Origin: a bacterium
GTDB taxonomy: Bacteria; AUK180
NCBI GenBank assembly: GCA_023144005.1
Contig: JAGLGN010000031.1
Location: 1 to 64,000 of the forward strand
Direction: 5' to 3'
Length of the DNA stretch: 64,000 nucleotides
Shown here: positions 10,691 through 41,640 of the stretch, one piece after another
Numbering within the stretch: position 1 is the first letter of the stretch
Layout of the letters: each line of letters starts with the position of its first letter
Position numbers and translations under genes: made by a program
Notes under the pieces: model-generated
What the model saw: the letters and a program-made list of their open reading frames with translations, nothing else
Told to the model about the DNA's origin: nothing
Database searches by the model: none

Positions 10691-10718
10691 TTTTGCAACA
10701 AATGCAACAACCGTCCCC
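10691..10718 (-). repeat. Solitary REP-like element identical in form to the RAYT element right end
   Basis: TTTTGCAACAAATGCAACAACCGTCCCC; matches 42033-42060 and 45913-45940. Confidence 0.85.
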
Positions 10719-10741
10719 GACATTTCTGCACTCTGCCATTT

Positions 10742-12265
10742 CTAGGTGTAGACCACCTCAACCGTTTCGATCATTTCCGTTTTTCCCTTGAGCTTTAACT
10801 CACCCACCTCTCGCCACTTGATCTTATCACGGACGGCACGTAACGTTTCGGGACCAAGCAAGATTTGGCCAGGTTTGGCTTGACTTTCCAAGCGGGCTGC
10901 CGTATTGATTGTATCGCCAAGAACTGTGTAGTCCATCCGGCGATCATTGCCCAAACAGCCAGCAGCAACCTCTCCTGTATTTATACCGATGCCCATGTGG
11001 ACTGGGGCGGTCTCCTCATTTCTCCGATTGATTTCTACAATTTTTGTTTGGATATCTATAGCACATTGAACCGCCCGCAGTTCATGATCTTTTTGTGTGA
11101 CAGGCGCGCCAAATACAACCATGATAGAGTCACCAATGAATTTGTCGATCGTCCCTTCGTAACGGAAAATGATGTCGATCATTTCACCAAAATATTCGTT
11201 GAGTAATCGAAAAATCTCAGTAGGTGAGCTTTTCTCAGAACGTGTCGTAAAACCGCGAATATCAGCGAAAACACAAGTCACCCTCCGACGTTCGCCATTG
11301 ACAATTCTTTCGAAATCCTTCTGCGAAATAACTTGTTCAGCTACTTGATGAGTCACGAACCGGCTAAACATTCGCTGAATTTGGGTTGAACGCTGCTGTT
11401 CCCTTTCTAATAGATGGTGGACACGGAGGAGAGGATTCTGAAAAACCTCCTGTTTGTAAGTGTTGATCCCGACCTTGCCTTGTCTAACCATTTTACGGGC
11501 GGAATGTTGTATCGGTATATATTTTGATGTCGGGAATTTGGGTAGGAGATTTTTTTCTAAGAACCCTTTCACCATTAGTCGAGTTTCGTCATCGATGAGC
11601 AAGACTTCATGGATGGGCAATCTTCCCTGTGTCCCTTGATGATTGCATTTCTCGCAGCCAACTTCACGCCAGAGTTTTTTGGGTGTATCGGTTTCCGGAT
11701 AGACAAGACGAGCATCCTCGACATCGACTATGACCTTTTCAGCACAATCTTGACAAAGCCGTGGTAATAAAATTTGTGACACAATACCGGAGAACCCGAC
11801 AAGGATCTCCTGATTTGTCAGACCCAATGCCCGGAGATTGTAGGTGACATCAATTCCTACAAAAGGCGTATCGATGCAGACAAAAACCCACCTGCCTCTA
11901 TTAATCGCTTCAATTGCCGATCTAATATTATATATGTGAAGCTCAGTCAAAACAATCACACTACTTTGATCATTAAAAGCAGCATCAATTGCATGAGCCC
12001 AAGCACTCTCCGTATTACCAGCGTAATAAATGTTCCATCCTTTTGGCAGTTCTAAATCCGATTCGAGATCTTTTTCTCCGGTAACGATGGGAACAGACTG
12101 TCCCATAGTTGACACCTCCAGTACCAGGCTAAGCAGAGACGTCGTTTTTCCGGTTGCGGTCTGACCTGTAACAGCGATCAAACCTGATGTTTCTTTTCTG
12201 ACTAGCTCAATAAGTCCTTGCACCGAAGACCGAATACCTAATTCGTCTACATCACGAATTCGCAT
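10742..12265 (-). CDS. Fusion protein: N-terminally truncated GspE/PilB-type secretion ATPase domain + class III adenylate/guanylate cyclase domain
   Basis: Walker A 'GQTATGKTTS', 'ILLPRLCQDCAEK...GCEKCNHQGTQGRLPIHEVLLID' (tetra-Cys as in GspE), then 'VTCVFADIRGFT...DKFIGDSIMVVFGAP...MDYTVLGDTINTAARLES'; RBS AAAGGAGGAAG upstream. Confidence 0.9.
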   Translation of the reverse strand: MRIRDVDELGIRSSVQGLIELVRKETSGLIAVTGQTATGKTTSLLSLVLEVSTMGQSVPIVTGEKDLESDLELPKGWNIYYAGNTESAWAHAIDAAFNDQSSVIVLTELHIYNIRSAIEAINRGRWVFVCIDTPFVGIDVTYNLRALGLTNQEILVGFSGIVSQILLPRLCQDCAEKVIVDVEDARLVYPETDTPKKLWREVGCEKCNHQGTQGRLPIHEVLLIDDETRLMVKGFLEKNLLPKFPTSKYIPIQHSARKMVRQGKVGINTYKQEVFQNPLLRVHHLLEREQQRSTQIQRMFSRFVTHQVAEQVISQKDFERIVNGERRRVTCVFADIRGFTTRSEKSSPTEIFRLLNEYFGEMIDIIFRYEGTIDKFIGDSIMVVFGAPVTQKDHELRAVQCAIDIQTKIVEINRRNEETAPVHMGIGINTGEVAAGCLGNDRRMDYTVLGDTINTAARLESQAKPGQILLGPETLRAVRDKIKWREVGELKLKGKTEMIETVEVVYT

Positions 12266-12283
12266 TTCACTTCCTCCTTTTAT

Positions 12284-12300
12284 CTACAACAACCGTCCCC
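12284..12300 (-). repeat. Partial REP-like end (CTACAACAACCGTCCCC)
   Basis: Shares CAACAACCGTCCCC with the 28-bp RAYT ends; sits 5 bp from the stop codon of the 2897-aa ORF. Confidence 0.7.
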
Positions 12301-12305
12301 GAATT

Positions 12306-15300
12306 TTATTCAACTCCCCAGATCGCGGAAGCGATCGGTTGTGTAGATATCTCATCTGAATGTGGGCTTTCATTCCCATTGCTATCTACAGCAGTGATCT
12401 GATAAGAATATGTTCTGCCATTTGTCAAACCGATATCATAATATTGATGAGGAACAGAACCCAGGTGTACGATTAAGTTTCTGTTAATCGCTCTTGGATC
12501 GTTATCTCTATAGATATTATATCCCGCAATATCAGTCTCGATGGGGTTTCCATCCCACGTTATAGAGATCTTAGTATCATGGCCAACTACAACCAAACCT
12601 GAAGGTACTCCAGGGATATCATCTCTGGTAAGTGTTATCGAGAGCGACTTTTCACTTGGTACACCGTCTAAAGTGGAGATCGCGGTTATTACAAAATCCG
12701 ACCCCTCCGAAATCGCAAGAAGCGTATACTCCCAGTCACCATTAGCATCTACGCCGATGCCTGCGGCTACGGATGTGTCACCCCTAAATAATTCAATAGT
12801 AGCCCCGGGGTCAGCAGTTCCCTTAATTGTCTGAGGTGACCCGTTCACTATAAAAGGGTCTGCGTTTACAGAATAAGTAGTAGGATAGGTAATAATCGGC
12901 GGGAACACACCTATATTCACATAAGTCCCACTTCCGGAATAATCGCTTTCGTTTCCGGCATCATCGACCGCATTCAACCAGTAGTAGTAATCCCCTGCCG
13001 CACTCACATAATCAAAGTATTCATCGCCTTGAATCCCATCGGCAATTTCAACGGCACTGCTCAACTGATCAGTTACTCCCCGTTTCAATCTATACACTAG
13101 ATTTTCTCCAGCCGGTTCGGTCCAGTATAATCTGATCTTTCCCCCCTGAATGTGCTCCGCATTAAGAGTAGGAGCTGCGGGGTCCGTTAGATCAACTTCA
13201 AAATCCCTACCGGAAAGTATTGAAGTACTGTCACTGGTTTTATCTGCAAAATCAGTAGCAGCGAAAGAGAAATATCCTGCACCTTGTGCAACTGAAGTGG
13301 TATCAAGAACTCCAGTCCATAGATTTCCCGAACCCGTCAATATGATGTCCTGTGTGCCGCTGCCGTCGAAATGCGCTGTTAAAGTCGGAGTACCCTGGAT
13401 ATTTTCATTGGTTTTCAGATTAATATTAATGCTGCCAAGTCCAAATGGGGATGAAGGATTCGTAGTTATCCAGCAAACCGGTTTTGATATCTCCACAAGG
13501 TGATTTTTTCCTGAGAGTATTTCGTTACCGATATTTCCAACAAGATCATACCCTGTGGCTTCAAAATGGGACAATCCGTCATACTCATTTCCAGTGATTG
13601 AAAGAACAAATGAATACTCATTATCCGATACTTGAGAAATACCGGAAACTGTTACCTTATCAGAATACTCTGGTTTCCACTTGATCACCGGCATAGATTG
13701 CAGGTTCTCGGAACTGAATACAGAAAATGTATAGTCTCCTGGTGAGACAATCGGAAATGGCAGACATGAAATTGTAAAGTACGGTGGTGTTCCGTCTGTC
13801 GTAAGAGTTACAGGACTGGAATATTCACCTGTATTTCCAACATAATCGATAGCCCTCACACTGAAAGAATAATTTCCATCATCTGGGGTATGCAGGTATA
13901 TCTCTTTCTTGTTCATGTAGTATATTTCAGAAAACTCCTCGCCTTCCACCAGTATTTCAAATTCAGCAATATCCGTATCTGCGCACAGCCATCTAAGCTG
14001 GACCATGCGATTGGGAAATGCTTTTGCTAAAATTATTACCGGAGATGAAGGCGGATAACTGTCAACGGAGAATTCTTTTCCTGAAGTGATAACAGTTCCG
14101 GTGTTTCCATATTTATCATTTCCTTCGAATTGGAATTCGGCGGGGCCGGAAGAGGCACCTGCTGGAATCCATACGGAGCCGTTAAAGACGGTTAACTCAT
14201 CATTGCCACTTTGAAGCGTAATTTCCTGCTTTTCTCTGTCATAATACTGGACATTGATTTTAGGAACTTCAGTAAGCGGTTCATTACTCGTCAAGGTAAA
14301 TCCATAATGCAAATTGCTACCTACGATCAGAGGAAACCCTTCTATAAAGGCGGTGGGAGGAGAGGTTTCTATTATGAAATCCGTTCCTTCAGTGATCTCT
14401 TTCCCTATATTATCGGAAAAATCGACCGCATAAAAGTCAAAATATCCGGGGCCGTCCGATGTTGTCTCATTGAGATAGATACTTCCGGACCAGCTCTTTT
14501 CGCTCCCTTGAAGATTAATCATAAAATAATCGCCGTTATATGTCACCATCTGAAGTATGGGTTCGTTCTTAACGATTTCAGAAAGTTCTAAAGAAATCAG
14601 GAGCTTCCCGACTGTTAAAGGAGATTCTTGTGAAAGAACGATTATCGCTGTGGGTGAAATACTGTCACATCCCACTTCGGCAGGACCGGCTATGTCGCCC
14701 TCATTTCCGGCTTCATCGACAGCCGAGACGCTGTAATAATATATTGCATCTAAATCGGGAACATCTATATACTCACAATTGATTATTGAGACATCGAGCT
14801 TCTGACCGGCTTGATCCGGATCATCGCTTCTATACAAGAAATATTCGGAGGGAAGTTCACCTTGAGGTGGGCTCCAGGTTATCTTTATCTCTCCATTTCC
14901 CAGGGGTTGCGCATACAAATACTGAGGGATTCCGGGAGGAGTTGTGTCTATGATAAATGTTTTGCCTGAAGTGATCTGATCGCCTACTTTTCCTGAAAGA
15001 TCACTTCCCGAAAATTCAAATACCGCTTCACCGTCTCCCGATGTGGAGTCAACTGTATAACTTGCAGTAAAAACCGTATCTTCATCATTAGCGGGAGTAA
15101 GTATAAGGTTTTGCACAGCAGCCATTCCTGCAGTTTTTATCGAAAGTGAGTACGATTTTGATGTATCCAATGGTTCAGAAACTTGAAGCGCTATAGCCAA
15201 ATCCCCGGCTTTTACCGGAGATCCAGGAATAATAGATATCTGAGCGGTCGGGGGGTAGATATCCCATTGAATGCTGGCTCTATCTGAAACCTCGCTTTCA

Positions 15301-18300
15301 TTTCCGGCTTCGTCAACTGCGGTAACTGCATAGAAATACTCAGCATCAAGATCAAGGGTTGAATCCTGATATGAAGTCGCTGTAATGAGCACATCATTTA
15401 CTTTCGCAGCATTATCGGGTAAAGTAAATTCTGCAGTCTTTTTATAAATATTGTATCCTACGCAATCCTCCGCAACGGCTACCCAACTTGCCAAAACTGC
15501 ATTATTATCAATCACAGCGGTAAATCCGGATGGAGAGCTCGGAAGAGATGCATCCGCTATCACAACAACTTCGGCTGAATATGCCCCTTCATTGGTGGCC
15601 CGATCAATCGCTCTGACTTTGAATGTAACGGATTCCTCATCGAGAAACTTTCCAGAGTAAAAAGTCCTATCTTCGACTGATGTCATAATATCGGGATTGT
15701 CCGGACGAACAATATTCACATAGTAATATGATATTGAATCGTCATCGAGAGCGGGCCAGGTAAATTTGATTTCACCTTCAGGTTTCTTTTCAGCAACAGG
15801 TAGAGCCGGCGCAGCAGGAAACACAGTATCAATATTGAAAAATCTGTCTGTGGAAGTATTGTACTCACCTATATTAGCCCCTGTTTTACTATGGAGATCA
15901 TCAGCGCTGAAGAAAAATTCGGCTTGACCCTCTCCCGTGAAGCCATTTAAATTGATCTCACCAGTATAATTAAGCGGATTCCCAGGATCTATGGAGAGGG
16001 TGATATCATATCTTAAGTTATTGTAAAAATAGTAAAATTCAATAGTACTGGAATCAATCTCCTCTGAGAACTCTACTGAGACTGGAAAAATATCCTCATT
16101 CAGATATTGCTCCCCGTTGATAGAACCAGTAATCTCAATATCAGTGATATACGGGGCATGTATATTCGCTTCAAAAGTAACGGGAGTGCCTATGTTGATC
16201 CCTGTGTTTCCCGCAAGATCAATACCTGAGAATTCAAACTCTCCGGTTCCATCTCCGACATCAAGCAGAAATGTTCCCGTCCAGGTATAAGTACCGCCAT
16301 TTTCAGACACAAATGAAAGAGGGATCTCCTTTTCCCAGTCATTCAAGGACGGAATTTCTGCCTTGAATACGGGATCCTCCCGCAATTCCTCACTTATGTC
16401 AACCGTTACAGATACGATCTCATTGTCAATAATTCCTGAAGGATTAAGTGTAATCGATGTCACTTCAGGCGGAATCATGTCAACAAGAATACTAACTTCA
16501 TTTGAAAAGTTGTCGAGTACATTTCCGTATTGATCCGCTACCTGTGCCTTGTAAAAGTATGTTGATCCGTCGTCTTTATCCCCGGCATCATTAAAAATTG
16601 CACTATCGGTTTCTCCGATCTCACTGTAAGTTCCACTGCTAATTTTTCTATGTATCAAAAAGCTCGGATTCTCCTCACCTGAGCGATCTTTAAGAGCTAC
16701 TGCCACACCGTCAGCCGTTTGACTTAATGACTCTATGAGAGGCGTTGTAGAAGGCGGAGTGGAATCAAATACGATCGTAACGACTTCCGTCTCTTCAGTG
16801 TTGTCCATATCATCTATTGCATAGAATTCAACCGTATGCTCTATCGTGGTATCCGCTATCTGAAACGGACTGCCGCTATAAGTATTCCAGGGTTCGGTAC
16901 TGCTGTATGTGGTGATCCTGTAATGTATGATACTGGTATCAGAATAGTGGCTGGAAAAATTACAGGTATCATAAGTCGCTCCTACGGTATAGACATTTCC
17001 CGAAACAGTATACTTCCCTGTGGGCACAAGGAATGTCATCGGAGGAATGGTATCGATATCGAGAATTCTTCTTTTTTCGTTTTCCTGATTTCCATAATTG
17101 TCAATACCGTAATAATACAGGGAATGATTTCCCGACATTCCTTCTGGAATTGCGATAACATCACCGTGATTAGCGGTATGGTAAGGTTCAAAATCCCACT
17201 TGTAATAAATATCTGCGAGACCCGCAATATCAATATCGTCAGACTCGACAGTGATCAGAGTATTTTTTGATACTTTCGTGTATTCCAAAAAGTGATGAAA
17301 TGGGACTCCGAAAGCAAGTGTAGATTCCGGAGGAGAATGATCGACATCTATTATCTGAGAAATACCGGTTGAAAGGATACTTTCATTACCGGCTAAATCC
17401 ACAGCAGATATCTTATATTCATATGCCCCGTCATTGTACATCACTTCCGTAAAAGACAAATCAGTGGATTGCCCGATCTCAGTGTCATCCCTGTATATCA
17501 CATATCTAATGACATCCGATTCAGGCGAAGCTGACCAGTTCACTATGATGGAATTTTGATCTACGGAAGTGGTTGGCTGGTCAGGCAGGGCCGGAGCATC
17601 AAAATCCGTCACAACATTCAGAATATCCTCAGAAAAAGGATTTGCTTCATCATAAACCCTCAGGGCTATTATCAGATCAGTCCCGGATGTAATCCCAATA
17701 GGGAGAGTGATAGTGAACAACAATCCTTCCTGGACCTGTTCTGCGCCTGTTAGAATTTCAGTCCAAGCAGACCCGTTGTCGGCGGAGTATCTTAGTGTGA
17801 AGTGATCGAATGAATCATCAGTAGCAGAACCTCTTATCTCAAATGTTCTCCCGACCGATTCGCCCTCACCGGGAGTTGTTATCAGAGCATAAGGGAGCTC
17901 CCTGTCAACTTTTATCTCGATCTTCTTGTTTGATTCACTCCCACTCTGTACTGCTGCGATTTCCGCATAATAATATCCGTCTATGGCAGTTTCAAGATCC
18001 AGATCAGAACCGTCCCATTCACATATATGAACTCCCGTTGTTTTGGACTCTTCAGAAAGAAGTGTTTTTACCAGTGAATCATCCGATTTTTTCTTTATCA
18101 ACAGTGTGATCGTACTGTCACTTGCTATCGTATAAGAAAAAACAGCGGAATCTTTATTCCCGTCGCTATTCGGAGAAATACTTGTATTGTCAACGGTGAA
18201 GTCTGTTATGAAACCCGTTTGAACATCATACGATAAGTGGCAAGTATTTTTCACTTCTCCACCGATAAATGCGCTCACCCGCACATTGTATATCCCGTAG

Positions 18301-20960
18301 AGTCCGCCTGTATCCCAGGTACCGAGAACATTGCCGTTGACATTGTCTACGGATGAATTTATTGGAGTCCAGACACCCGGATTTGCGGCATCCTCATAAT
18401 CAAGGACAAAATACTCCATATCCGCAAGGATTGTGCTTCCGTCTGCGCTGATATTGTCGCTTGCAATACCTATGATATCAACATCCGCAGTGGTAATGAT
18501 TGTATCTTTTACCGGAGAATATATATATGCAATGGGTTTATACATTTCACTCGAATTATCCATGATCCACACATTATCCTTTGCCTCGGCTCCGCGTGAG
18601 GAAATGAAACCGATATTGCTTCCGCCTGAATAATAATTTGCATCAATATCCTTCCCGCCGTAGATAGTGTATAACCGAGTATCAGACCCGTCGGAAGATA
18701 TCGACATTATATCATTGTTTTCAACTCCCGATTTTGACTGGAACATGATCCGGTCACCGTCGGCGCTCCAAGAAGGATTGTCGACAACTAAAGAAGAAGT
18801 AAGATTCTTGAAATCCAATCCATCAGTTGAAATCGTGCAAATAGAGTGTTTATCTGTATTAAGAACGGATCTCCTGAAAGTAATTCTGGTTCCATCAGGT
18901 GATATTTTCGGACCACGATATACAACCGAAGAAGACCTGTCGGGATTATATATATGTGTAAGGGAAGTGGGATTGCTAACAGAAACTTTTACAATGCCTG
19001 AAGCACTTGCAGAAGTATCACCGCCTCTTATGAAAATTATCTCGGAACCGTCAGGTGTCCAAGATGGAGTGAAGGCATAATTCCAGAAATCTGAAATCGG
19101 ACAGGAATAAACCTGTTGTGCATTCCCGAAAGGATCGGGAATATTGTCACTCTCCGAATCAATTTGTTTCATACGAATACCATGTGATTCCACATAGCAT
19201 ACCCAATTCCCGTCAGGGCTTATCTGGGGACTGTCATGATCAATGTTGCCGGAAGTGAGAACAATACTGTTCTGCGATGACAATGAATACAAAACGACTT
19301 GATTGTAACCTGAAGCATCCTCCTGATTGCAGACAGCCCAATTCCCGTCAGGCGTGACACCACCGAGATTGCTTTTACTCGTATCGTCAAAGGTGATCTG
19401 GCGGGTTCCGGCAATATTGATCGTAACCATATCAATAGAAGACAGATTGGAATCCGAATCAGTAACAACCAATTTCAAAGTATAGATTCCCTCATGAGCC
19501 CCGATGCGGGTATCCCATATGCTGAGAATACTATCGTCAACATAGTGACTATTTGAACATAATTGTGTCCAACTGGAAGGGGTCTTTCCCTCACCGTATG
19601 AAAGCTGATACGAACTAAAACTAGAAAGAATACTTCCATCAACACTTCGTCGGCTTCTTGCATTTCCTGTAATATTAATGATGCCGACCTTGTCAGTCAA
19701 ATCCGGTGGAGAAGTAATTTGGGAAACAGGATAGTGAATGGTGTAGGGGTTATCCATGATCCAAATATTGTTAATCAAGTCGGGGGCACGGTCTGAAATA
19801 AAGCATATCTTGTTGCTGCTTGAATAATAATTGGCATTAACATTTTTCACACCCTGCACTGTATATATCCGATTGTCGGAACCGTCAGAAGATATCGTCA
19901 TTATATCATAATTCTCAGTTCCTGTTTTCAAATGGAATATGATTCGCTCACCATTAGGACTCCAAGAGGGATTGCCAGCAACTAAATTTGGAGTGAGGAT
20001 CTTATAATTCGTTCCATCTAATGAAACCGTACAAATATAGTGTTTATCATATTTCGGAAAAGTACGCCTAAAAACAACCTTATTACCGTCTGAAGATACC
20101 TTGGGGCCGCGATAAGTAACCGAAGAGGATCTATCGGCGTTATATATGTGTGTAATAGAACCTGGATCACTGACGGAGACTCTCACGATACCCGAAGCAC
20201 TCGCGGAAGTATCACCACCCCTGATAAATACTATCTCGGAACCGTCAGGTGTCCAAGATGGAGTGAAGGCATAATTCCAGAAATCGGTATCTGGACAGAA
20301 GTATACTTGACGGACATTTCCGGAAGTGTCTGGAACGCCATCACCATCTGAATCTATCTGTTTCATATAAATCCCAAATGATTCCACATAGCATACCCAA
20401 TTCCCGTCAGGGCTAATTTGAGGACTGTCATGATCAATGTTGCCGGAAGTGAGCACAATACTGTTCTGCGATGACAGTGAATACAAAACGACTTGATTAT
20501 AACCTGAAGCATCCTCCTGATTGCAGACAGCCCAATTCCCGTCAGGCGTGACACCTCCAAGATTGCTCTTATTCACATCAGTATTATCAGAAATACAAAT
20601 AGAATTTGCCTCTGATACTGTAACTGAATACTCGTCTGATGTCGCTGTATTCGCTGTATCCCACGCTCTGACTTTATCTATCTCTAGTTTAATATTAAAA
20701 ACCGCAGAATATTTTCCGGTGGAAATAAGTGTGCCGAAAGTTAGAAGATTCCACGAACCTCCATCATCCGTAGAATACTGGAATTCAATCCCTCCCGAAG
20801 CATCGGAATCCGTACAGGAAATTTTATACTCGGCACCCAGGATAAGCTGCTGGCTTTCCAGTCCCCTCATATCGTATATCTTCACATCTGAAGGCGCGGT
20901 AGCGCAGATAAGAGTACTTAAAGAAAAAACAAATACAAGAAGTATTATAAGCTTTCTCAT
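12306..20960 (-). CDS. Giant secreted/surface protein with TolB-like WD40, FlgD-Ig, fibronectin type III and Ig-like repeats (start at internal Met, 20960)
   Basis: Signal peptide 'MRKLIILLVFVFSLSTLICA'; two TolB-like blocks ('SPDGNWVCYVES', 'PSWTPDGSEI'); 'ISPNSDGNKDSAVFSYTI'; many FN3 units ('Y.V.AVDEAGNES'); starts 2 bp from the TPR ORF stop. Confidence 0.85.
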   Translation of the reverse strand: MRKLIILLVFVFSLSTLICATAPSDVKIYDMRGLESQQLILGAEYKISCTDSDASGGIEFQYSTDDGGSWNLLTFGTLISTGKYSAVFNIKLEIDKVRAWDTANTATSDEYSVTVSEANSICISDNTDVNKSNLGGVTPDGNWAVCNQEDASGYNQVVLYSLSSQNSIVLTSGNIDHDSPQISPDGNWVCYVESFGIYMKQIDSDGDGVPDTSGNVRQVYFCPDTDFWNYAFTPSWTPDGSEIVFIRGGDTSASASGIVRVSVSDPGSITHIYNADRSSSVTYRGPKVSSDGNKVVFRRTFPKYDKHYICTVSLDGTNYKILTPNLVAGNPSWSPNGERIIFHLKTGTENYDIMTISSDGSDNRIYTVQGVKNVNANYYSSSNKICFISDRAPDLINNIWIMDNPYTIHYPVSQITSPPDLTDKVGIINITGNARSRRSVDGSILSSFSSYQLSYGEGKTPSSWTQLCSNSHYVDDSILSIWDTRIGAHEGIYTLKLVVTDSDSNLSSIDMVTINIAGTRQITFDDTSKSNLGGVTPDGNWAVCNQEDASGYNQVVLYSLSSQNSIVLTSGNIDHDSPQISPDGNWVCYVESHGIRMKQIDSESDNIPDPFGNAQQVYSCPISDFWNYAFTPSWTPDGSEIIFIRGGDTSASASGIVKVSVSNPTSLTHIYNPDRSSSVVYRGPKISPDGTRITFRRSVLNTDKHSICTISTDGLDFKNLTSSLVVDNPSWSADGDRIMFQSKSGVENNDIMSISSDGSDTRLYTIYGGKDIDANYYSGGSNIGFISSRGAEAKDNVWIMDNSSEMYKPIAYIYSPVKDTIITTADVDIIGIASDNISADGSTILADMEYFVLDYEDAANPGVWTPINSSVDNVNGNVLGTWDTGGLYGIYNVRVSAFIGGEVKNTCHLSYDVQTGFITDFTVDNTSISPNSDGNKDSAVFSYTIASDSTITLLIKKKSDDSLVKTLLSEESKTTGVHICEWDGSDLDLETAIDGYYYAEIAAVQSGSESNKKIEIKVDRELPYALITTPGEGESVGRTFEIRGSATDDSFDHFTLRYSADNGSAWTEILTGAEQVQEGLLFTITLPIGITSGTDLIIALRVYDEANPFSEDILNVVTDFDAPALPDQPTTSVDQNSIIVNWSASPESDVIRYVIYRDDTEIGQSTDLSFTEVMYNDGAYEYKISAVDLAGNESILSTGISQIIDVDHSPPESTLAFGVPFHHFLEYTKVSKNTLITVESDDIDIAGLADIYYKWDFEPYHTANHGDVIAIPEGMSGNHSLYYYGIDNYGNQENEKRRILDIDTIPPMTFLVPTGKYTVSGNVYTVGATYDTCNFSSHYSDTSIIHYRITTYSSTEPWNTYSGSPFQIADTTIEHTVEFYAIDDMDNTEETEVVTIVFDSTPPSTTPLIESLSQTADGVAVALKDRSGEENPSFLIHRKISSGTYSEIGETDSAIFNDAGDKDDGSTYFYKAQVADQYGNVLDNFSNEVSILVDMIPPEVTSITLNPSGIIDNEIVSVTVDISEELREDPVFKAEIPSLNDWEKEIPLSFVSENGGTYTWTGTFLLDVGDGTGEFEFSGIDLAGNTGINIGTPVTFEANIHAPYITDIEITGSINGEQYLNEDIFPVSVEFSEEIDSSTIEFYYFYNNLRYDITLSIDPGNPLNYTGEINLNGFTGEGQAEFFFSADDLHSKTGANIGEYNTSTDRFFNIDTVFPAAPALPVAEKKPEGEIKFTWPALDDDSISYYYVNIVRPDNPDIMTSVEDRTFYSGKFLDEESVTFKVRAIDRATNEGAYSAEVVVIADASLPSSPSGFTAVIDNNAVLASWVAVAEDCVGYNIYKKTAEFTLPDNAAKVNDVLITATSYQDSTLDLDAEYFYAVTAVDEAGNESEVSDRASIQWDIYPPTAQISIIPGSPVKAGDLAIALQVSEPLDTSKSYSLSIKTAGMAAVQNLILTPANDEDTVFTASYTVDSTSGDGEAVFEFSGSDLSGKVGDQITSGKTFIIDTTPPGIPQYLYAQPLGNGEIKITWSPPQGELPSEYFLYRSDDPDQAGQKLDVSIINCEYIDVPDLDAIYYYSVSAVDEAGNEGDIAGPAEVGCDSISPTAIIVLSQESPLTVGKLLISLELSEIVKNEPILQMVTYNGDYFMINLQGSEKSWSGSIYLNETTSDGPGYFDFYAVDFSDNIGKEITEGTDFIIETSPPTAFIEGFPLIVGSNLHYGFTLTSNEPLTEVPKINVQYYDREKQEITLQSGNDELTVFNGSVWIPAGASSGPAEFQFEGNDKYGNTGTVITSGKEFSVDSYPPSSPVIILAKAFPNRMVQLRWLCADTDIAEFEILVEGEEFSEIYYMNKKEIYLHTPDDGNYSFSVRAIDYVGNTGEYSSPVTLTTDGTPPYFTISCLPFPIVSPGDYTFSVFSSENLQSMPVIKWKPEYSDKVTVSGISQVSDNEYSFVLSITGNEYDGLSHFEATGYDLVGNIGNEILSGKNHLVEISKPVCWITTNPSSPFGLGSININLKTNENIQGTPTLTAHFDGSGTQDIILTGSGNLWTGVLDTTSVAQGAGYFSFAATDFADKTSDSTSILSGRDFEVDLTDPAAPTLNAEHIQGGKIRLYWTEPAGENLVYRLKRGVTDQLSSAVEIADGIQGDEYFDYVSAAGDYYYWLNAVDDAGNESDYSGSGTYVNIGVFPPIITYPTTYSVNADPFIVNGSPQTIKGTADPGATIELFRGDTSVAAGIGVDANGDWEYTLLAISEGSDFVITAISTLDGVPSEKSLSITLTRDDIPGVPSGLVVVGHDTKISITWDGNPIETDIAGYNIYRDNDPRAINRNLIVHLGSVPHQYYDIGLTNGRTYSYQITAVDSNGNESPHSDEISTQPIASAIWGVE
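18200..20590 (-). repeat. In-frame tandem duplication of a 1194-bp TolB-like module inside the 2897-aa gene (outer limits approximate)
   Basis: TTGCAGACAGCCCAATTCCCGTCAGGCGTGACAC at 20521 and 19327, CTCGGAACCGTCAGGTGTCCAAGATGGAGTGAAGGCATAATTCCAGAAATC at 20235 and 19041; both offsets are 1194 bp (398 codons). Confidence 0.9.
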
Positions 20961-20962
20961 GA

Positions 20963-21550
20963 TCACCTCTTCTCTACTATTGAGATCAAACGCATACAAT
21001 CAAACCTTACCGTTTTAATATACTGGAAATCCGGGTAATCAGAAATGATTTCCTCGTAAACACCTATCGCCCTTTCGTAGTCGTTTAGCTTTTCATACGC
21101 TTTGCCTTTTCGGTATTTAACACTGACCAAATACTTACTGTCTGGATGAAGAGCTTCAAATTCACTGTATTGCAGTGCGGCTTGTTCATATCGCATGGCA
21201 AAAAAGTAGCAATCGCCAATCCATTTAAATGCGATGGCTGAAGTCTCGCTACCCCCTTGGGCGGCGCTTTCCCGGAAGGCGGAAATTGCCATTTCTATCG
21301 GATATATCCTATTTTCCACCTTGAGGGCGTTCTCTTTATCCCACAAGTAGTAAAGGGCAATTCCCTTTTCAAAAAGCACCTCTGAAGCGAAGTCACCAGC
21401 GGCAGGCATCAATAAATCGCATTTCTCTACCGCTGCTTCGAATTTTCCTTTCTTTATCAGATTCCTGATCTCCACAAGCCCGGATTCTGCGAATACTGAA
21501 ACACATATCATCATAACAACGATCAATGTACTAATCTTGTTAATTTTCAT
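20963..21550 (-). CDS. Secreted tetratricopeptide-repeat protein
   Basis: Signal peptide 'STLIVVMMICVSVFA'; 'AFKWIGDCYFFAMRYEQAALQYSEFEALHPDSKYLVSVKYRKGKAYEKLNDYERAIGVYEEIISDYPD'. Confidence 0.85.
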   Translation of the reverse strand: MKINKISTLIVVMMICVSVFAESGLVEIRNLIKKGKFEAAVEKCDLLMPAAGDFASEVLFEKGIALYYLWDKENALKVENRIYPIEMAISAFRESAAQGGSETSAIAFKWIGDCYFFAMRYEQAALQYSEFEALHPDSKYLVSVKYRKGKAYEKLNDYERAIGVYEEIISDYPDFQYIKTVRFDCMRLISIVEKR

Positions 21551-24500
21551 TATTCCACCTCCCTGTAAAGGGATTCATAGTATAGAAGCAGTTTATCCAT
21601 CTGCAAAAGGCACTCTTTGGTGTCTACATCAATTACTTGCCTTACGTTTCCGATGGACTTAAGGATATCCGAAACTGCCTTGTCAAGCTCATCGATCGTA
21701 CCCGGATATTCTGCGATACGCTCAAATATTTTGATTGCATTACCGATCTTATTGCTGTACTGTGTAATTGCTGTAATCTCCGCAAGTTTCTCCATGATGC
21801 TCTCTTTTAATCCGGCAACTGTTGACGCAACCGTTACATTTCTTTGAACGGTCTCGGAATTAAACCAGATATTATCCACCTTATACAATGTGTTCGTATT
21901 AAAATCCAGATCTCCCGAATAATCGGGGATCCTGATCAAGTACCTGGCGCTGAATTCACTTTCGCTCGAGGCAAAGTCAAATGTGATCGTATTTTCATCT
22001 ATCACTCCGCTGTCATAAGCTTTCAATATCTCAACATTTTGAGGTACCGTTTCAATGATTCTGATATCGGTCGAAATATCCGCTATTACATTGATCGTTA
22101 CAACCGCAACCATGCCGGGAAGGTATTCCCCTGTACTTGCGGGAGCAAAATAATCAATATTTCGGGAGATTATCTCTTCCATTGAAATGTTACCGGCATT
22201 ATTCAGGAGATCAAAACCGTAATAAGAGGCCTTTCCGTCACCAAACGAATTTAAACTGATCACCGGAGCAGGGATGTTGCCAGAGATAGTAATAGTTCCC
22301 GGAATCTCCTGCGACACCACCGTAGCATCATACACTTCCAGCCGTTGTATCCATCCCTCAACGGGAATTGTACCTGCATTGCTTATGATTGAATCGGAAA
22401 TATCAACAATGTAGTCGTTTTCGGGATATTCTCCCGTATATTTCAGATTGAACAGTTCAGGAGAACCACCTTCGGAAATCATTTGGATATACCCAGAGGA
22501 AAGAAGGCCCTTACCGGAGAAAACATGCTCTTTAAGCTCTTCTGATGTACTTCCCGGCAGATTTTCATCTTTTTCGTTAATCCAGTATACATTGTACATT
22601 CCTGTTCTCATTTCATCAACGAAGTCAACGATATTGTCAACTATCAATAAATCCGGCAATCCACTCAGGAACTCAAGGGTTTCCGGCTCTTCAAATCCTT
22701 CGCCGTTCAATAGTAGCACCCTTTCAAATTCAGAAGCAGCTACAATCGTCTCGGTTGCCGGCACAAGGATCACTTCGATCGTAAACTCCTCTGTTGTATT
22801 GTCGACATTATCCGAGGCTTTATATGAAATGGTATATTTTCCCGGAATACTGAAAGGTAACACGAACTGATCAACATAGTTCATCCATCCGGTATCATTC
22901 TGGCCTGAAGCACTTGCGACCCTGTATTGGATATTCTTGACACCGCTCAAGGCATCCTGTGTTATCAGAGAAAACAATGTCCCTTTGAAAACGAGAGTGT
23001 TGACCCCTGAAATCTTAAACGGGTGATAGTCAAGAGCGATCTCGGGCGGGGTGCCGTCCACGGTGAAAGAGGCAGAGCTGCTGATTTCCGTATTGCACGC
23101 ATTGTCCTTCCCGTAATAACTCATTTCGTGGAGACCTTCCGCAAGGCCTGAGAAATAAACAGGCATGAGGTATTGCTGGAGTTCACTTTCATCAATTGAG
23201 AACATCACATTTTCAACACCTGAAGAATACAACCCTCCGTCCACAGAAGATATTTCCAGATTACTCATATCCGAGACAAAGGTAGTACCGGCAATCTGAT
23301 AAATACTTCCGTTAAAATTGACTGATGAGACAGGTGAAATAAGATCAATGAAGACACTTTCGTAATAAACATTGCTCTCAAGGCCCTCAACATCAACTGC
23401 AGTTAACTCAAATGCATACAACTCGTCGGTATATGCCATTCCATCCGAAGAAAGCCCGTTCCAGATAAATGTATTTTCTTCATTCGGCAGCACATATCTG
23501 TGATCCTCAAAGAGTACATTACCTCCTCTATCGAAAACCCTTAAATCCGCTCTGGCAAATTTATCCATTGTAAAACGAAGTTCGCAGATATCCAGACAAT
23601 TATCACCGTTGGGACTGAAATACAAAGGAATTACTGTAGAACTGATAAATTCGGGCCGGGTTTCATCACCGTAATAGCCGGAAAGAATAAACAATCCCGA
23701 AATGGAATCAACCATGACCGTTAAGCTGTTTCCTGCGGTATCGCGCAAAATCTGAATGTCATCGGTTTGAGCGATATGCCACATCCCGGATTCGTCATTA
23801 TATGTCCAGACCTGAAGACGGGTCTCATCAAGTCCCTCTACCTCTTCATCGGTATAGGTGAAGGTAAGCTCAATGGAATTATTGAATTCCGTCTGGCCTG
23901 AAAGCAATTTGATATCGTAAACCTCAGATATAATCGGTTCGATATTCTCAAGGTTCGTATTTTCACCGGGAATACTGTTGACCGGAAGCGAAGATATCAT
24001 CAGCGTATCCACCGGAGAAAGCAGGTCACTCGGATCCACGGTCGCGATAACATCACATTCCAGATTGGCAACGCTGCCGGGAACATTCCACTGACCCTGT
24101 TCACATTCGGGATGTTCCGTAAGACCAAGTATACTGATATTGCCGCTGTTTCCCGAATTGTACTCCGAATAAACTATCTTTGTGCCATCCCGTGAAATCG
24201 CCGGATACGCGATCGCATAACCGAATGACATCGCGGCGATTTCCATATTGTTAGCTATGATAGTATCATTTCTGCCGAGGAAATCGACCTTCCCTATTGA
24301 ATATTCCAGAATATCGGGCTTGCCGGGTAAAATTGTATAATTAACTTGCTCACCGAATGGATCGGGAGAGGCAGAGAATTTCGGAACCACCAGACAGTCC
24401 TCACCGGGGATCATATTGTCGGCAAGAGCGTAGTATACATATTTACTGTCGGAAGACCAACCGATCATATCGACGGCATAGGATGTAGTCATATCGAAAT

Positions 24501-27500
24501 CAGCGATCTCAACAGCCGGAGCACCGTTATAATCCTGCAAATTACCGGCCTCATCCAAAAATACCACTTTTATACTGTAAATGTTTCCAGCGACCCATGA
24601 GAAATAGGCGAGCTTTCTATTATCAGGAGATATCAAAGGTTGCCAGCACCATTCATCATTTTCGCTTATCTTCTGGTATACAGGAACACTCCCTGCCAGA
24701 TTTACGGTGTAAACAGGATTAGGATTCCCCTGTTCGTTCGAATCAGGAGTTCCGTTCACGGCAAGGAATTGCCCGTTATTGCTCCAGTCTATACCGTATG
24801 AGAAAGCATAGAGTTCCCTTACTGTGCTTATCCCGGACTCATTGTATATCTTCAATGTTGTTCCGCCGTTAGTTCTTGAAATGAACGCCAGATCATTTGC
24901 CTGCTTATTCCATACATGATCCCATTCAAGCACCGATTCGTCAATAATATCGGTTGTATTGTTTATGAGATCCAGGATCTCGATCTTATACCCCCTGAAA
25001 TATGCCAGATAATTATCATCAAAGGAGAGTTTCGGAACATCAGTCGGCGGCGGATACCAGGTCTGCCACCATGGCCAACCGGCCGGCTTGAACGCCTCGG
25101 GCACATTATTGACAATTAGCGTGCCGTCTATATTACCGCTCCAGATCCCAGCGTTTCGGGAAATATTGTACGGGAGAGTTATGCCGGGCTGGATAAAACA
25201 GTTGTTACACCTACATTCATCCTCTGAAAGCATATATGTCACTATTTCACCGCTGCTGTTGAAGATCGGCTGGCCTGTGAAATATCCGGTCGGGAATTCA
25301 ATCGTATTGTCCAAAGCGATCGTCGTTATCTTTCGGGTGGTATCGAGATCCACACTGACCGAATCGATGTCCTGATTACCGTTGGGATCTTCGGCGGTAA
25401 GGGTACAGGTATATGTTCCCTCGGGTGCTGACAGTCCTGATGCATCATTTCCATCCCATGTAAAGATATAATTTGTCGTTTCAGCTGCTCCCGCAATGGA
25501 GTAAATCGCCTGGCCTGTGATCATACTTGTGATATCTAAGGTCCAGTATTCAATGCCTCTGTCATCACTTACATTCAAGGTAAATATTACCTGGTCTTCA
25601 CATTCATCTCCATCAGGAGAAAATTTCGTAAGATCAGAGGTTAATGTCACTACCGGAGAAAGATCCGTCACAGAAAGTGAAAGGCTTGATTCACCGCTGA
25701 TATTCAAAACATTATCGACCGCGCAAAGCGTATATTCAGCGTCATATCCTTCGGGAAGAACCTCATCAAGGTAAGTTGCGGCTCCGAATGCTATGTCGGC
25801 GATCTTTTTGTTGTTTCTACTCAGTATGTACGAGTTCACGCCGGAATGAGCGTCAGTTAATCCGGAATGATCGTCGGTTGATCCGGTAAAACTCACCAAA
25901 ACACCGTCAAATGTGAGAACCGCGGTTGTAAGCAGTGGAACTGTCGGAGGAATTGAATCGAGAATGACCGTTTTGTCAACTGTAGTGGAAATATTACCCA
26001 GATTATCCGAAACATATGCGGATATGGTATGACTGCCGTCGAGCAGAGTCATATTGAAATCCTGTGTATACTCGATATCTGTTCCGCCGTCAATTGAGTA
26101 ATAGCGTTTTTCCAGACCGGAGCCGGAATCCGTACCTGATATTCCGAAATAGGTTTCAGTTGAAACATAGAGATCACTGGAAGCATCTAAGTAAGCGGGC
26201 CCTGAAACCACTGAGATCAAAGCCACCGGAACTTCTCCATCCAGGAAGATGTCATAAGTGATTTCTTCGGTCTCATTCCCGAGCAAGTCGGCGGATTTGA
26301 CGGTCAGAATATGACTCCCCTGGCCAATTATCTGCAAGGCAGTAGAATACAGTATATAAGCTCCGTCATCCACTTTATAATAACATTGCGCTAAATCCTC
26401 ACCACAGCCCGCATCTGTAAATTCCAGTGTGATATCAGTCGTTGAAAGGACATAAAGCGGATCTTCACCGTAACTGTTGGTTGCGGTCAGGGTTATTTCA
26501 GGTGGCGTATTGTCCATGGTAAAATCTTCAGTATTCTCAGTTTCGGTGTTGAATACATTATCTTCCGAATAATACGATACGGTCAACGGACCATCTTCAG
26601 AAGTGATTGTAAACGGGACATCATAAATCGAATAACCATCGGTACCGTATTTGAAGTAACTGTTCCTGACTCCTGAAGTTGAGTATGAGGAGTGCTCGGA
26701 AACCGAGATTGTGAACAATGTTTCGTGATTCACATAAGTACCAGAAGAAGGGCCTGATGTCGCCAGCGTGGAATCAGGCGGAAGATCATCTATGTCCACG
26801 ATCAATTCGCCGACAGGCCCGTATGTACCATCACCGGTATTCACCGCCTTATAGAAGATCGAATATGTCGCCTGAGCCGACGGATACAAAGGAATCGAAT
26901 ATGTCAGATAAGTTCCCTCGACGCTGTCATTATTGTACTCTATCAGGTCAAATGCGGACCCCGGACATCTGTTTTCAAGTGTAAAGACATAATCCAAAGA
27001 CGCAAAAAGCTGAGTATCCGTTTCATGAAGAGGCTTATCCGAGATGGCCAATACACAGTTGATCTCATCGGTAACTTTGATGGTAAATTCATAATCTCCA
27101 GTGGAATTGCCTAAATTGTCCACGGCGCTGTAAGTGATAGTGTATAGGCCGGTCGCAGCAAGTATAAACTCCACTTCATCACTGTCAGTGATGATAGAAG
27201 ACCCTCCGTTTATCGAATATGTAATATTGTCGATCCCGGAACCAGTGTCGGCTGCGCTTATTGTATAGGAGTAACCTGTAATGGTCTCGGCATAATTTCC
27301 CTCTCTGTTTATATAGAAGCCGTTAATCGTGAAATCCAGGGAAGGAGCGCTTTCATCAAGTATCGAATTCACAGAGACGATTTCGCTGAAGTTACCTACA
27401 TTGTCCACTCCTCTGAAATAAAGAGGAGTTCCCGCTTCGGAATACCCGCCGGGATACTGAACGGAGTTTACCCAGAAAATGCCGTCCGTTGAATACTGGG

Positions 27501-30500
27501 TTGATTTCACGCCCGAACCCGTATCGGTGGCGCTCAGATCGAATGTTGTGGAATCTTTGACATAGATCGGACCATCGTCAGGAGAGTAGTTATCCCCTAC
27601 GACCGCATAATTTATTTCGGGATCGCCGATATCTACATTAAAGGAGAAGTCTTCAGTCGCGCTTGTGTTCCCTACTTTATCAATACCGTAATAGGAGAGC
27701 AGATAGTCACCCTCCTGCGCAATACTAAGAGGTGCGCAATAATCACCGAACTCCCCTGCAGCGCCCATTCTGTACTTTATCACATCCGGGAATATATCCG
27801 TTGCCGACAAAGAAATGCGGGCGGTTCCGCTGATCCAGTTATAGCCCGTGCCTGCATCATTATATACATACGGGATTACCGAGTGTGTTACAGCAGGAGC
27901 ATCGTTGTCTATGTAAAGCGGGAATATCCTCTCATCTTCCATATTTGACAGGTTATCAATACTATGATATCCGATCTCGTGAAGTCCGCTTGAAAGCGAA
28001 GCCAGATCGATCACGGAATCCTGCACATAGTCAATCCAGGCAGCATCATCAAAACGATATTGCGTCAAATCTACTCCGGTCGTAATTGTACCCGGATCAG
28101 AAGATATGAAGCTGAAGCCGTTGCTTCCCGAAGTTACCCTTAGCCCTTGCGGGGTGGCAGCGACAATTCCCGTAAAACTGATATATGTCAGAGGCGGAAT
28201 CCCGTCAACGGAATAGGTTTCATTATAACTCTCTTCATTTCCCACATTGTCAACGATCGTATAATCTATTTCCTCGATTCCCGAAAGAATATACGGATGG
28301 AATCCCGCAGTATAGACAACATAGTTACCCTTGTTGATACTGTACTGGATTTCCTTTACTCCGCTGTTTTTCACATCAGCCGTATCCGTACCGGTCAGAG
28401 TGATATCCGTAACGGATGAAGCGTATTGCACTGTCTCTATAATGTAATCAGGATCAAATGCTATACTGCCGGACGGCGGAGTATTATCAACATATACCGG
28501 CCATGTCTTCTGATAGATGAGCGTCGAGGTAGCGTCCCAGGCCTTTACTTCAATAGTGTGTGCTCCGGCGGATATCAGCTGAAATTCCGCATCTTCTACA
28601 TAAGGCGTAAACCCGGAAGCGTCAATCTGATATTCGACAAATCCTATTGAAGCATCGGTCCAGTTCAATTTGAATATATTGTCAAGCGATGAAAATACAT
28701 CGTCCGTAGTGATATGCAGGGGTTTACTGCAAGTGAGGGTTACAAGAGGTATCTGCAAGTCACAGATTACGCTGACCTCTTTCTCCACTTCGACATTTCC
28801 AAGAATATCGGTCGATCTGAATGCGAAAGTGTAAGTTTCCTCAGTATCGAACAATACTCCGGCAGATTCGTCATAAACGATCTCATCACCGATGTCAATG
28901 CGGTATTTCGTATATGCGGTCAGGCTTTCATCGGATACACTGAGAAATACCGAAGTACCCGGAGTGACATAATAATTCACACCGTCCGTATGGATGTCAT
29001 CATATTTAGCGATAGAGGTAACGGGAGAATTATCATCTACATAAATGACCGTTGACTTGACGGTTTCCAGATTCCCCACATTGTCCAGTGATCTGTATTC
29101 GAGGAATGTTTCCTCAGAACCTATCAAGGGCACGTTCCCGTCTGTCCACTCCATGTTATTGATGCGCCATTCTGTATTCGCGATTCCTGAAGTCATATCG
29201 GTCGCGCTTATCGAAAGAACCGTTGAGGAAGTGATGTACAGGTACCCGCTGCCGGGATCATAGGATGCTCCGCTGACACTAATGCTTGAGACCGGAATGT
29301 CGCTGTCCACGGAAATCGTTCTCTCATACTGGGATTCGTTATTCAGAAGGTCAATACCCTTGTATCCGATACGGAAACCGTCTTCGGCAGGAGAAGGTAT
29401 CTGCATTCCATCACTGTAATCGGAGCCGCCGATTGGGTATCCGTCTATTGTATAGGTGATTTTATCTATACCGGATACATCAGTACCGGAAATGTAAAAT
29501 GAATTATCTGGAGAAGAATAGTCATAACCGTCTTTTTCGTAAATACCCATAGAGCTGCTTAGATATAGCTGCGGTCCCTGATTATCGGCGATTATCTGTC
29601 TTTCAGATATTCCCGTACTGTTTCCCACATTGTCATCCGCGAAATAGTAAATCCTTGTATTCTCGGTAAAATCTGCGAAGTTGGCCGAAAAGATATTCCA
29701 CGCGCTGCCATCTTCTGGCAGATCATACAGGTAATAAATGTTTCTGACACCGGAGCCGGTATCGGAAGATGTAAAGCCGAGCTCGAATAAACCCGATACA
29801 TACACCTTACCCGAAGCATTGTCAAACAAATAATTTCCGGAAACGCCAGATAATTCCACTATAGGCGGCAGGCGGTCTATATCAAGTGTTATCGATTTTA
29901 TAGGAGATTCGATGTTTGCGGTATTGTCTTCACTATAGTAGTGATATGTAACGGACTCCTCGGAAGGCCCCGTCAGAAGCGGGATCGTATAGGGTTGATA
30001 CTGATCTGAAGTCCCTTTTGCATAGAGGATCTCTTTCACACCGGAAGCTTCATCGAGCCCTTGATCAACAGATGTGAATATCACTCCGGTCGAGCCCGAT
30101 ATGTAATTATTGAAATGTTCGCCCGTGAATGCCACCGTTGTGACTGGCGACAAGTCGTCGACATAGATCGTATAAGTTCTTTCATCTTCGAGCGAGGCGG
30201 CGGCTAAATTGTCATACGAATAAAACGATATTTTCTGCATACCCGGATTCGGCAGTGTGAACGGACTGCTTGAACCATCGAAGAAAGTGTAATCTGTGGT
30301 GGGATGTATCCGGTACATAACCCCAGTTGCGGGAGGATCCCACGTAAACCCGATCAGCGCGTCTTTGACAAATATTCTGCCGAGTGCGTCGATGTACGGC
30401 GCGGGATCTATGGTTATCGCGGAATACGGAATGGAATCCGTGATCTCGAATGCGGTCTCGAAAATACGGGTGACATTTCCCACATTATCGGTCGCCCTGT

Positions 30501-33500
30501 ATGAAATAACATGCGAGTCCAAAGTAAACGGCCCGATCGCGCCGGTGTATTCATTCCAGGAAACATCGGCATCAAGCTTGTATTCTACTATTTTTACACC
30601 GGAAGCGCCGTCCTCGGAAGACATTTCACAAATGACATCATCGCCCGTAAAGAATTTCGTGATCCCGTCAAAATACTCGGTGGCATATCCGGAAAAAGTG
30701 ATATTCAACGCTTCAGGAGGATCGGGATCCAACAGTATGACCTGTTGCTGAACCGTTTCATTATTGATAAGGTTGTCGCCCGCATAGAATCTGATTAATC
30801 TGTTTCCCCTGCCGGTAACAACTACGGGCGTATCATAAGTCAGATCTCCGCTTGACCCAATGCTGTATCTGATGTATTTCACCCCGCAGCCGGTATCGGT
30901 AGCGTTAAGGGTGAAATTCGCGCCGTCAGCAAAAAAGAGATTTGAGTCGTCAAAATAAGTTTTTCCGGATTCGGAAGTAAATAGGGTCACCGGAGCGATA
31001 TTGTCCCCAATGAGCGGTTCTCCGTATACCGAAGTATAATTTCCGGCATCATCAATGGCCTTGTACTGGAAATTGAAACTATTCGCGGGAACATCGAATT
31101 TAAATTGACTTGCACCGGACTCGATCCATTCTGAAGCCGGATCGGTACGGTAATAAATATGCTGAAGTTGTGCGAGAGAATTGCCCGCATAACTTCTGTT
31201 TATCTTGAATACAGTATTATTATTTACGAATACACCGTAATTTCCACTGAGTGCAAGAGAAAGTGTCGGGGCCTCTTTCTGAACTGTGACCTTCACAGTT
31301 TTTCTGATCTCTTCTCCTGTTTCTTCGCTTCTTGCTGTGATCACAAACGAATATATCCCTGAAGGTACTATTCCGGCGGGATCGGCATCATTGTAACCGT
31401 GCCAGGCAAGTCTGTAACTCCCGCTCTGGTATTTGGCGTTTTCAAAAGAAGGAAATACGGTATTACCCGCGGCGTCCAGAATGTCAACGGTTATCCAGAC
31501 TCCGTCTATCGAAATGGTAAAATACAGCTCGGTAATATCCTTTATACCGTCGTCATTCGGTGAGAACACCGCAGGTTCCACATAGAGGTTCTCAAGATCG
31601 AACATCGAAAGTACCCAGATATTCCATTCCCCGCTTCTTGAAGACTGGAAATAAATATTCTTTCCGTCGGGAGAAGAAGCTGCGCGGCAGTCATCTGTAT
31701 TTGATGTGTTCTCAAGTATCCTGTATTTTATCATGTTTTCAAGGTCAGATGTCCACAGCCGGTAAAATCCGCCCTCTTTCCGTGAATACAAAAGACCCGA
31801 ATCACCGGGAAGCCAGGAGGGATGAAAATCAAGCGGGCCTGTGGTAACCTTCTCCAATGATTTATTATCGACATTGAATATTCTGATGGTGTCGTCATAT
31901 ATGGATTTACGAAGCGCAATTCTGTCCAGCTCATTTGAAACGCTTGGCTCTCTAAGGTCTCCGTAAGATTCATAATGCAGGATTTCAGGTACTCCACCAG
32001 TGAGCTTCTGCTTCCACAGCTCACCGTCTTTCTCAAATACAATAGTATCATTTGACAGCCATGTCGGCTCCGAAAGGTCAAGTGTTGAATTTGTAAGGCG
32101 TATTATTTCCAGAGGTTCTGCCAATCTGACAGTATATACTTCCCTGATCCCGGCGGCATCTGATGTAAAAGCTATCCTTGTCCCGTCCGGTGACCACGAG
32201 GGCTGCCCTTCACTTGAGAGCAGAGCCGGGTCACTTTCTCTGGCCATGCTTCCCGTCAGGGATACGGCGGTATTTTCCAGCTCCTCGATATCATTTGATT
32301 CGATCAGCCAGATATCATCGTTTCCACCTCTCAGGGATACAAATGCGATCTTGCCGCCGGCAGGACTGACCGCTGGTTCGCGGCCTTCCCTCACGGTCAG
32401 TAGTTTGAGAGAGCCGCCTGTACTGGAACTGTAATCCACTCTCCATTCCCAGATGGTCGGGTTTTGAAGGAGGTTTCCCGCCCGGTCAGATGCAGATGTA
32501 AGAGAAATACGCACATATTCGCCGTTAGTAACAATGAAATCCTTTGTTTTGAGCAGATTCACGGTCAAAAGTCCTGAAAGACCGTCATATTCAATGCCCG
32601 GATCGTCAATACCTCTCGCAGCAGCTTCGCTGTTCAGATATACGGATATCGTAGAAGGATCGACACCAAATCCATTACCGTCCGTAATATGGATAGTGCC
32701 GATCGCGCCCCCATCCGTTACCGGAGCCGGATCGTAGGCATAAGGTCCCTGTCTGTCAACCCGTACCCGATAAGGATATACACATGATCTGTTGCCTGCT
32801 GGATCAATTGCTGCAAGGTTCAGATAATAAAACAGTTCATTGCCGATCAACTGATCTGAATACCCTTCAAATGATGTATTCGCATTCATCAGGGAGAAAT
32901 CCGGTTCCAGCCCCCTGATCGTCGAGAATACCGAAGCATACTTCAGGCCGTCCTCGTCCCCCGTCCAGAATATCTTTATATCTGCGGCATCCCCGATGCT
33001 GAGAGGATCAGCGGATTCCATTATAAAATTGTCTATGTCGAAATAGGATCCGGTTTGATTCTGACTCTTGTAGATGAAGAAATTGTCGCATATCCAGTCA
33101 CCGAGATATACTTTTTTTATCGTATAATTATTATCCAATATCTCATCTGCCGGAGCTGTTCCTGCATTTTCAATTACATACTTATGCAAAAGCGAGTAGA
33201 TATCAAATTCATAGTTATGCCAATAATTGTCAATTATCAATTGTCCATTGTCAAATGTCTTTAGGCTATACATCATCTCGTCGCCGGTTTCGTCTCCAGT
33301 AAGTGGTATGAAGTACAATTTTGAGCCGATCTCAAGGTATAAGTTAAACGAAACTCCCTGCTCCGTCCTGTAATCAAAGCTCCAGATCGGGTATTCTCCG
33401 CAATCAACAGCGGCTTCCGAAATGATATAAGAATAATCGCTTCCTTCCTCGCCCTTTACAAATCTGAGGAAATTGTCGCTTGATCCCTCATCCGAGATAT

Positions 33501-40843: not shown

Positions 40844-41640
40844 TTTATAAATTAACCATTTACTGAAAACAACTCTTTAATAATTTCCCTTTGTGTTTTT
40901 GTTTCGTGAAAAGTAATGACATCCCTTTCACTTATCTCTCGCATGTAATATTGTATCATTTAAGCATTGATATTCAAAGAATATCTATCAATTATTCCAT
41001 TGGTTTCTATAACAACCCTTGTGTTGGGAAATGCATTTTTCTATATTTCGCAATATCTCTATTTTACCCTATTTCCCCTTCTTCTATTCTGATTTCCCGC
41101 ACTACCGCGAGTCAATATTGTTGAGCAACCATATTGGGGACGGTTGTTGCATCTGTTGCATAACTATTCCTCACTCTTCAATATCCTCCCCACTGTCGAC
41201 CGGTTTACTTCCATCAGACGAGCAATGCCTGCTCTCGAAATTCCCTCCTTCAACAGTAGGAGAAAAGCATTTCGCAATGTCTTTCTATTTTCACCAAAAT
41301 TCTTCATACTTTTAAGTACTTTCAAATCGTAGCCATTCTCCTTAAAAAGAATATTACATTTCTCTTGGGTCTTTTCAATCTCCCTCCGCTTCTCAATGTA
41401 CTTCCCTTTCTCTCTCCCTTCTTGTCTCTTGTCGAAATTGATATACGCTATCTCATTCCCGATCGAATCCTTGAAGGTGGGAAATTCATCAGGCCCGGCC
41501 TCCATGAATTCTAGATAATCCTCCGTTGATCTGAAAACTGGCAAGTTCCTGAGTCCAGAAATATTCTCTTCCTTGTTGCTTTCATAATATGAAGCGCTTG
41601 AATATTCGTACTCAGAAGGTTCATCACATATTTTTGCCTT
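40844..41640. repeat. Segmental duplication copy A (spacer + RAYT left end + 3' half of RAYT gene)
   Basis: Near-identical to about 44719-45520; high identity drops near 41632. Confidence 0.85.

Follow-up and report, generated by a model that had tools for sequence, protein, structure and literature searches.

Gene and domain layout

The window analysed here is a 64,000-nucleotide stretch of a contig from an uncultured bacterium (JAGLGN010000031.1, assembly GCA_023144005.1, positions 1 to 64,000). It contains, at 10742-12265 on the minus strand, a gene with a single intact ORF of 507 aa and an ATG start, which joins a secretion-ATPase domain to a nucleotide cyclase. All features of this gene given below lie on the minus strand. 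Two domains are found, both above the curated cut-offs of Pfam. The first is a T2SSE (GspE/PilB) C-terminal domain in residues 5-268 (11462-12253), recognised by Pfam, alignment and AlphaFold2/Foldseek, the Pfam match covering profile positions 120-366 of 370 (E 1e-25, 90 bits). The second is a class III nucleotide cyclase domain in residues 326-499 (10769-11290; Pfam Guanylate_cyc, E 3.5e-33), recognised also by its PDB relatives and by alignment. Linker helices in residues ~278-322 (11300-11434), placed by alignment and a low-confidence model, occupy the position of a signalling helix between the two.

The T2SSE match begins at profile position 120, and the fusion protein lacks both N1 and N2, as had been claimed from the letters of the sequence before any search. 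The same sequence-only reading placed the N-terminus about 30 aa before the Walker A motif; the count is 33 residues. A Shine-Dalgarno sequence AGGAGG (12273-12278) precedes the ATG by 7 nt, and just 6 further codons are open upstream of it, so the N-terminal truncation is genuine and does not stem from a mis-called start. Composition (GC 0.45) and codon use (1.45 sd below the window mean) do not clearly mark the gene as foreign.

The ATPase-like half

The motif states of the N-terminal half were read from alignments with GspE/PilB proteins, taken from the own genome, from other genomes and from the PDB. The Walker A motif GQTATGKT (residues 34-41, 12143-12166) is intact. The Asp box is degenerate (GEKDLE, residues 63-68, 12062-12079), the invariant E-D-P-x-E appearing as E64-K65-D66-L67-E68, with E64 and E68 kept. 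The Walker B region is likewise degenerate (VIVLTELH, residues 103-110, 11936-11959), the usual G-E-x-R-D being replaced by T107-E108-L109-H110-I111; here the alignment agrees with the sequence-only reading and adds to it that Glu108 is retained, with the Gly, Arg and Asp gone. The His box is replaced by VCIDTPF (residues 129-135, 11861-11881), again as proposed, so that T-x-H-T reads C130-I131-D132-T133, and the second invariant His is R125. E64, E68, E108 and T133 are the sole retained residues of these three boxes, and alignment to GspE/PilB yields no canonical Walker B or His box, the presence of which had been named in advance as counting against the idea.

The zinc subdomain is better preserved. 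Both halves of the tetra-cysteine motif, CQDC (residues 171-174, 11744-11755) and CEKC (residues 204-207, 11645-11656), had been noticed by eye; C171, C174, C204 and C207 are all present in the alignment with the exact spacing CX2CX29CX2C, the spacing described for EpsE (PMC5061722).

Searched against NCBIfam, the N-terminal half gives GspE (TIGR02533) as top match, at 84 bits against the curated cut-off of 630 bits for true GspE; PilB/PilF score below GspE. An AlphaFold2 model of residues 1-290, computed with 18 relatives, reaches pLDDT 83 and pTM 0.80, and in a Foldseek search of the PDB it retrieves GspE/EpsE first (TM 0.78 over the query, E 1e-21), followed by PilF and PilB. In this model the half is still GspE-like in fold, with a degenerate active site. 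The full-length model is good for the cyclase, weaker for the N-terminal half and poor in residues 263-323 (pLDDT <50), so that it lends no structural support to a coupling of the halves. A helix formed by residues 278-303 runs into the cyclase in this model. Sensors are commonly linked to cyclases via a signalling helix (PMC1592074), and the position of helix 278-303 matches that of the helix described there.

Identity of the N-terminal half to all relatives compared ranges from 20 to 28%, the PilB copies of the own genome falling at 20-22%. The resident PilB proteins are thus no closer than foreign GspE, and the half is not a fresh copy of one of them.

The cyclase half

All catalytic residues of a class III cyclase are present in the alignment. 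FADIRGFT (11246-11269) carries the metal Asp335, DKFIGD (11129-11146) the purine Lys375 and the metal Asp379, and DYTVLGDTINTAARLES (10883-10933) the purine Thr447 together with the transition-state residues Asn454 and Arg458. The sequence-only reading had recognised the two metal Asp motifs and a further signature, and the alignment identifies the remaining residues (K375, T447, N454, R458). A purine pocket with Lys and Thr is the class IIIb adenylate pattern, and K375 and T447 occupy these places by position. In sAC-like enzymes, a threonine has been taken as predictive of a response to bicarbonate (PMC3383692). The best PDB relatives of this half are bacterial adenylate cyclases (2w01, 6fht and CyaB 3r5g), and cAMP is its predicted product. 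On this evidence the protein combines a degenerate GspE-type domain, devoid of N1 and N2, with a class III cyclase that has its full set of catalytic residues.

The cyclase domain is up to 46% identical to its relatives. Where this protein has its GspE domain, the nearest cyclases in other genomes have PAS, GAF, FHA, HAMP or receiver domains. A cyclase tree places the fusion cyclase outside the resident paralogues, without strong support. Besides dozens of further class III cyclase matches, the genome encodes five cNMP-binding proteins, and a cAMP signal would therefore find readers in it. In this genome (G000), 43 class III cyclase or T2SSE sequences match the query, most of them cyclases, which is very many for 2.67 Mb; many of the cyclases have two tandem cyclase domains in proteins of ~1300 aa.

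Repeats and neighbouring genes

Sequence comparison reveals REP-like repeats on both sides of the fusion gene: a full copy TTTTGCAACAAATGCAACAACCGTCCCCGA on its left (10691-10720) and a 16-nt copy CAACAACCGTCCCCGA on its right (12287-12302), in the same orientation. Direct copies of CAACAACCGTCCCCGA at 10705 and 12287 thereby bracket the gene. The 16-nt sequence also ends two Y1-transposase elements in the window (~41136-42060 and 45016-45940) and is dispersed across the genome. REP sequences belong with Y1-type transposases (PMC6006769), and the repeat of the window resembles them in both respects, ending elements and occurring dispersed. The Y1 (IS200-like) transposase genes (41136-42060 and 45016-45940) have an extra HTH and inverted copies of TTGCAACAAATGCAACAACCGTCCCC at both bounds. 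Solo copies of TTGCAACAAATGCAACAACCGTCCCC are dispersed in the genome, some of them followed by tandem GTCCCCGAATTT units.

The direct neighbours of the fusion gene are unrelated to pili or secretion. Two giant same-strand ORFs are present in the window, one of 2897 aa (12306-20999) with PD40, fn3 and Ig-like repeats and one of 5920 aa (21550-39312). The nearest secretin/pilin-like cluster lies 34 kb off on the same contig (45947-51057). A secretin gene and one for a pilin-like protein are accompanied there by small genes that match no Pfam family, and the cluster may serve the assembly of a type IV pilus or a type II secretion system. The genome encodes four complete assembly ATPases and several PilT-like ones.

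In a sister species of the same genus (G001), the flanks of the gene are 97, 93 and 89% identical. The homology ends at the two repeat copies (positions 10720 and 12289), and at the thresholds used this genome has no such fusion. The two flanks lie there on different contigs, each continuing into other sequence, so that the sister species offers no clean empty site. From this comparison, the fusion gene was likely gained recently in a region rich in REP sequences and Y1 transposases; loss in the sister species, or a rearrangement, is a possible alternative. A transposase-like gene of 368 aa in the sister species (G001 L104, 3689-4795) adjoins a further REP copy, itself next to the papain-like protease gene.

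Distribution of the fusion

The architecture had been proposed to be non-standard, and domain-architecture searches of genomes and literature bear this out. No second T2SSE-cyclase fusion was found in ~630 distinct genomes, comprising relatives, broad families, the own phylum and the phyla of the best cyclase matches; in part of this survey, scoring was limited to the few top candidates of each genome. A peptide scan of the genome contigs of 85,000 species, less sensitive and able to detect close relatives only, gave none either; it yielded three ordinary GspE/PilB genes. Searches of plasmids and phages gave none, nor did viral contigs in a scripted test for both domains in one frame. No description of a T2SSE domain joined to a cyclase was found in the papers searched. 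The fusion is rare and so far a singleton, one gene in one genome.

One candidate for a second fusion (L036, match to residue 230) was rejected: its N-terminal half is membrane/periplasmic by sequence and contains no ATPase. A different T2SSE fusion occurs in a genome of the same class (G005, locus L061), where a single frame of 868 aa encodes a GspE-type core and, after it, a receiver sequence resembling that of response regulators. Among IMG/VR viral contigs (L113-L192), class III cyclases are common, with at least 575 cyclase-encoding contigs among the 600 pattern matches listed.

Interpretation and alternatives

We regard the protein, with a probability of roughly 0.5, as a soluble, cAMP-producing cyclase whose sensor is the repurposed, hydrolysis-impaired C-terminal domain of a GspE-type secretion ATPase. 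The usual N-terminal sensor of a class III adenylate cyclase would have been replaced by this domain. The four-cysteine site would bind zinc and hold the P-loop domain together. With its Walker A motif intact, this domain has probably retained the ability to bind ATP or ADP. In the hexamer of assembly ATPases, N2 normally rests on the C-terminal domain of the adjacent subunit (PMC11656802); with this neighbour-clamping domain gone and the Asp and His boxes ruined, the P-loop domain is hardly a motor. Two chains may pair via the joining helix so that their cyclase halves form a two-site homodimer; whether the P-loop domains have nucleotide or a partner bound would then set the helix and with it the cAMP output. 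The sensor reading fits the place of the GspE domain in the slot of PAS, GAF, FHA and HAMP domains as well as the retained GspE fold. Against it stand the single known copy and the lack of any neighbour gene hinting at a pilus or secretion partner.

A narrower form, in which a dead GspE domain within a one-chain device reads ATP/ADP, or else the state of a platform for pili or secretion, and reports it directly as cAMP, is speculative and would surprise us; the pilus or secretion link of the protein is one that we infer. The sequence-only reading had proposed that a non-motor ATPase sensor regulates the cyclase. Position in the sensor slot and the GspE fold speak for this part of it, whereas the singleton status and the recent insertion may also reflect an accidental fusion.

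According to the latter explanation, a GspE fragment and a cyclase gene were joined recently and by chance at a REP-rich spot; the cyclase may work, and the N-terminal half would be a decaying passenger. Such an origin agrees with the singleton status of the gene, with its absence from the sister species, where the similarity of the flanks breaks off at the REP copies on either side, and with the loss of invariant ATPase residues, which could mean decay instead of specialisation. An intact ORF with a strong ribosome site is less expected from it, and the exact zinc spacing and confidently predicted fold would be hard to retain under decay. The low identity of the N-terminal half to its relatives, moreover, indicates an old lineage rather than a recent duplicate of a resident PilB. 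We consider accidental fusion unlikely, yet a serious contender.

The truncated GspE domain may also sense nothing and serve as a docking module that brings the cyclase to the platform of a type IV pilus or of type II secretion, or mixes into a motor ring, for local production of cAMP. An assembly-ATPase fold kept together with its zinc subdomain while the catalytic boxes were lost is what such a module might look like, and potential docking sites exist in the complete assembly ATPases and PilT-like proteins of the genome and in the secretin/pilin-like cluster on the same contig. Against it, N1, which likely faces the stator in assembly ATPases (PMC11656802), and the ring-forming N2 are both absent, and genetic linkage is no closer than the 34 kb mentioned. 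Docking in place of sensing appears improbable.

That the N-terminal half is still an active ATPase, whose hydrolysis drives or times the cyclase, would agree with the intact Walker A motif and Walker B Glu and is very unlikely given the loss of the Asp box, the His box and the Walker B Arg and Asp and the absence of N2. An assembly or binning artefact of the metagenome-derived genome, suggested by the single occurrence, is scarcely credible, for the junction lies within a single open frame, and the contig around it, 91 kb long, matches a same-genus genome at 89-97% identity in the flanks.

Relation to known systems

The sensor reading places the protein within a known kind of enzyme, the sensor-cyclase. 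With class III adenylate cyclases that have PAS, GAF, FHA or HAMP sensors it shares the common layout of sensor, helix and cyclase, and what appears new is the C-terminal domain of a GspE in the sensor slot, for which no precedent was found. GspE/EpsE (PDB 4pht, 1p9r, 4ksr; TIGR02533) shares with it the C-terminal fold, the Walker A motif and the CX2CX29CX2C spacing at ~24-25% identity over the aligned fold; the fusion protein differs in being without N1, N2, Asp box, His box and Walker B Arg/Asp and in carrying a cyclase. Fold and zinc subdomain are also common to the type IV pilus assembly ATPases PilB/PilF, from which the fusion is more distant by score and shows the same losses. If the sensor reading is true, a hexameric motor domain has been stripped of its motor parts and reused as a signalling input.

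To our knowledge, the known links between pili or secretion and cAMP are multi-protein relays. The Pil-Chp/CyaB pathway of Pseudomonas couples type IV pili to cAMP (PMC11656802) through several separate proteins, whereas ATPase domain and cyclase form one chain here, with a putative link to the pilus. A single chain of motor domain and cyclase would, if this holds, be a simple and testable sensor, and one possibly assembled in a hotspot of REP sequences and Y1 transposases.
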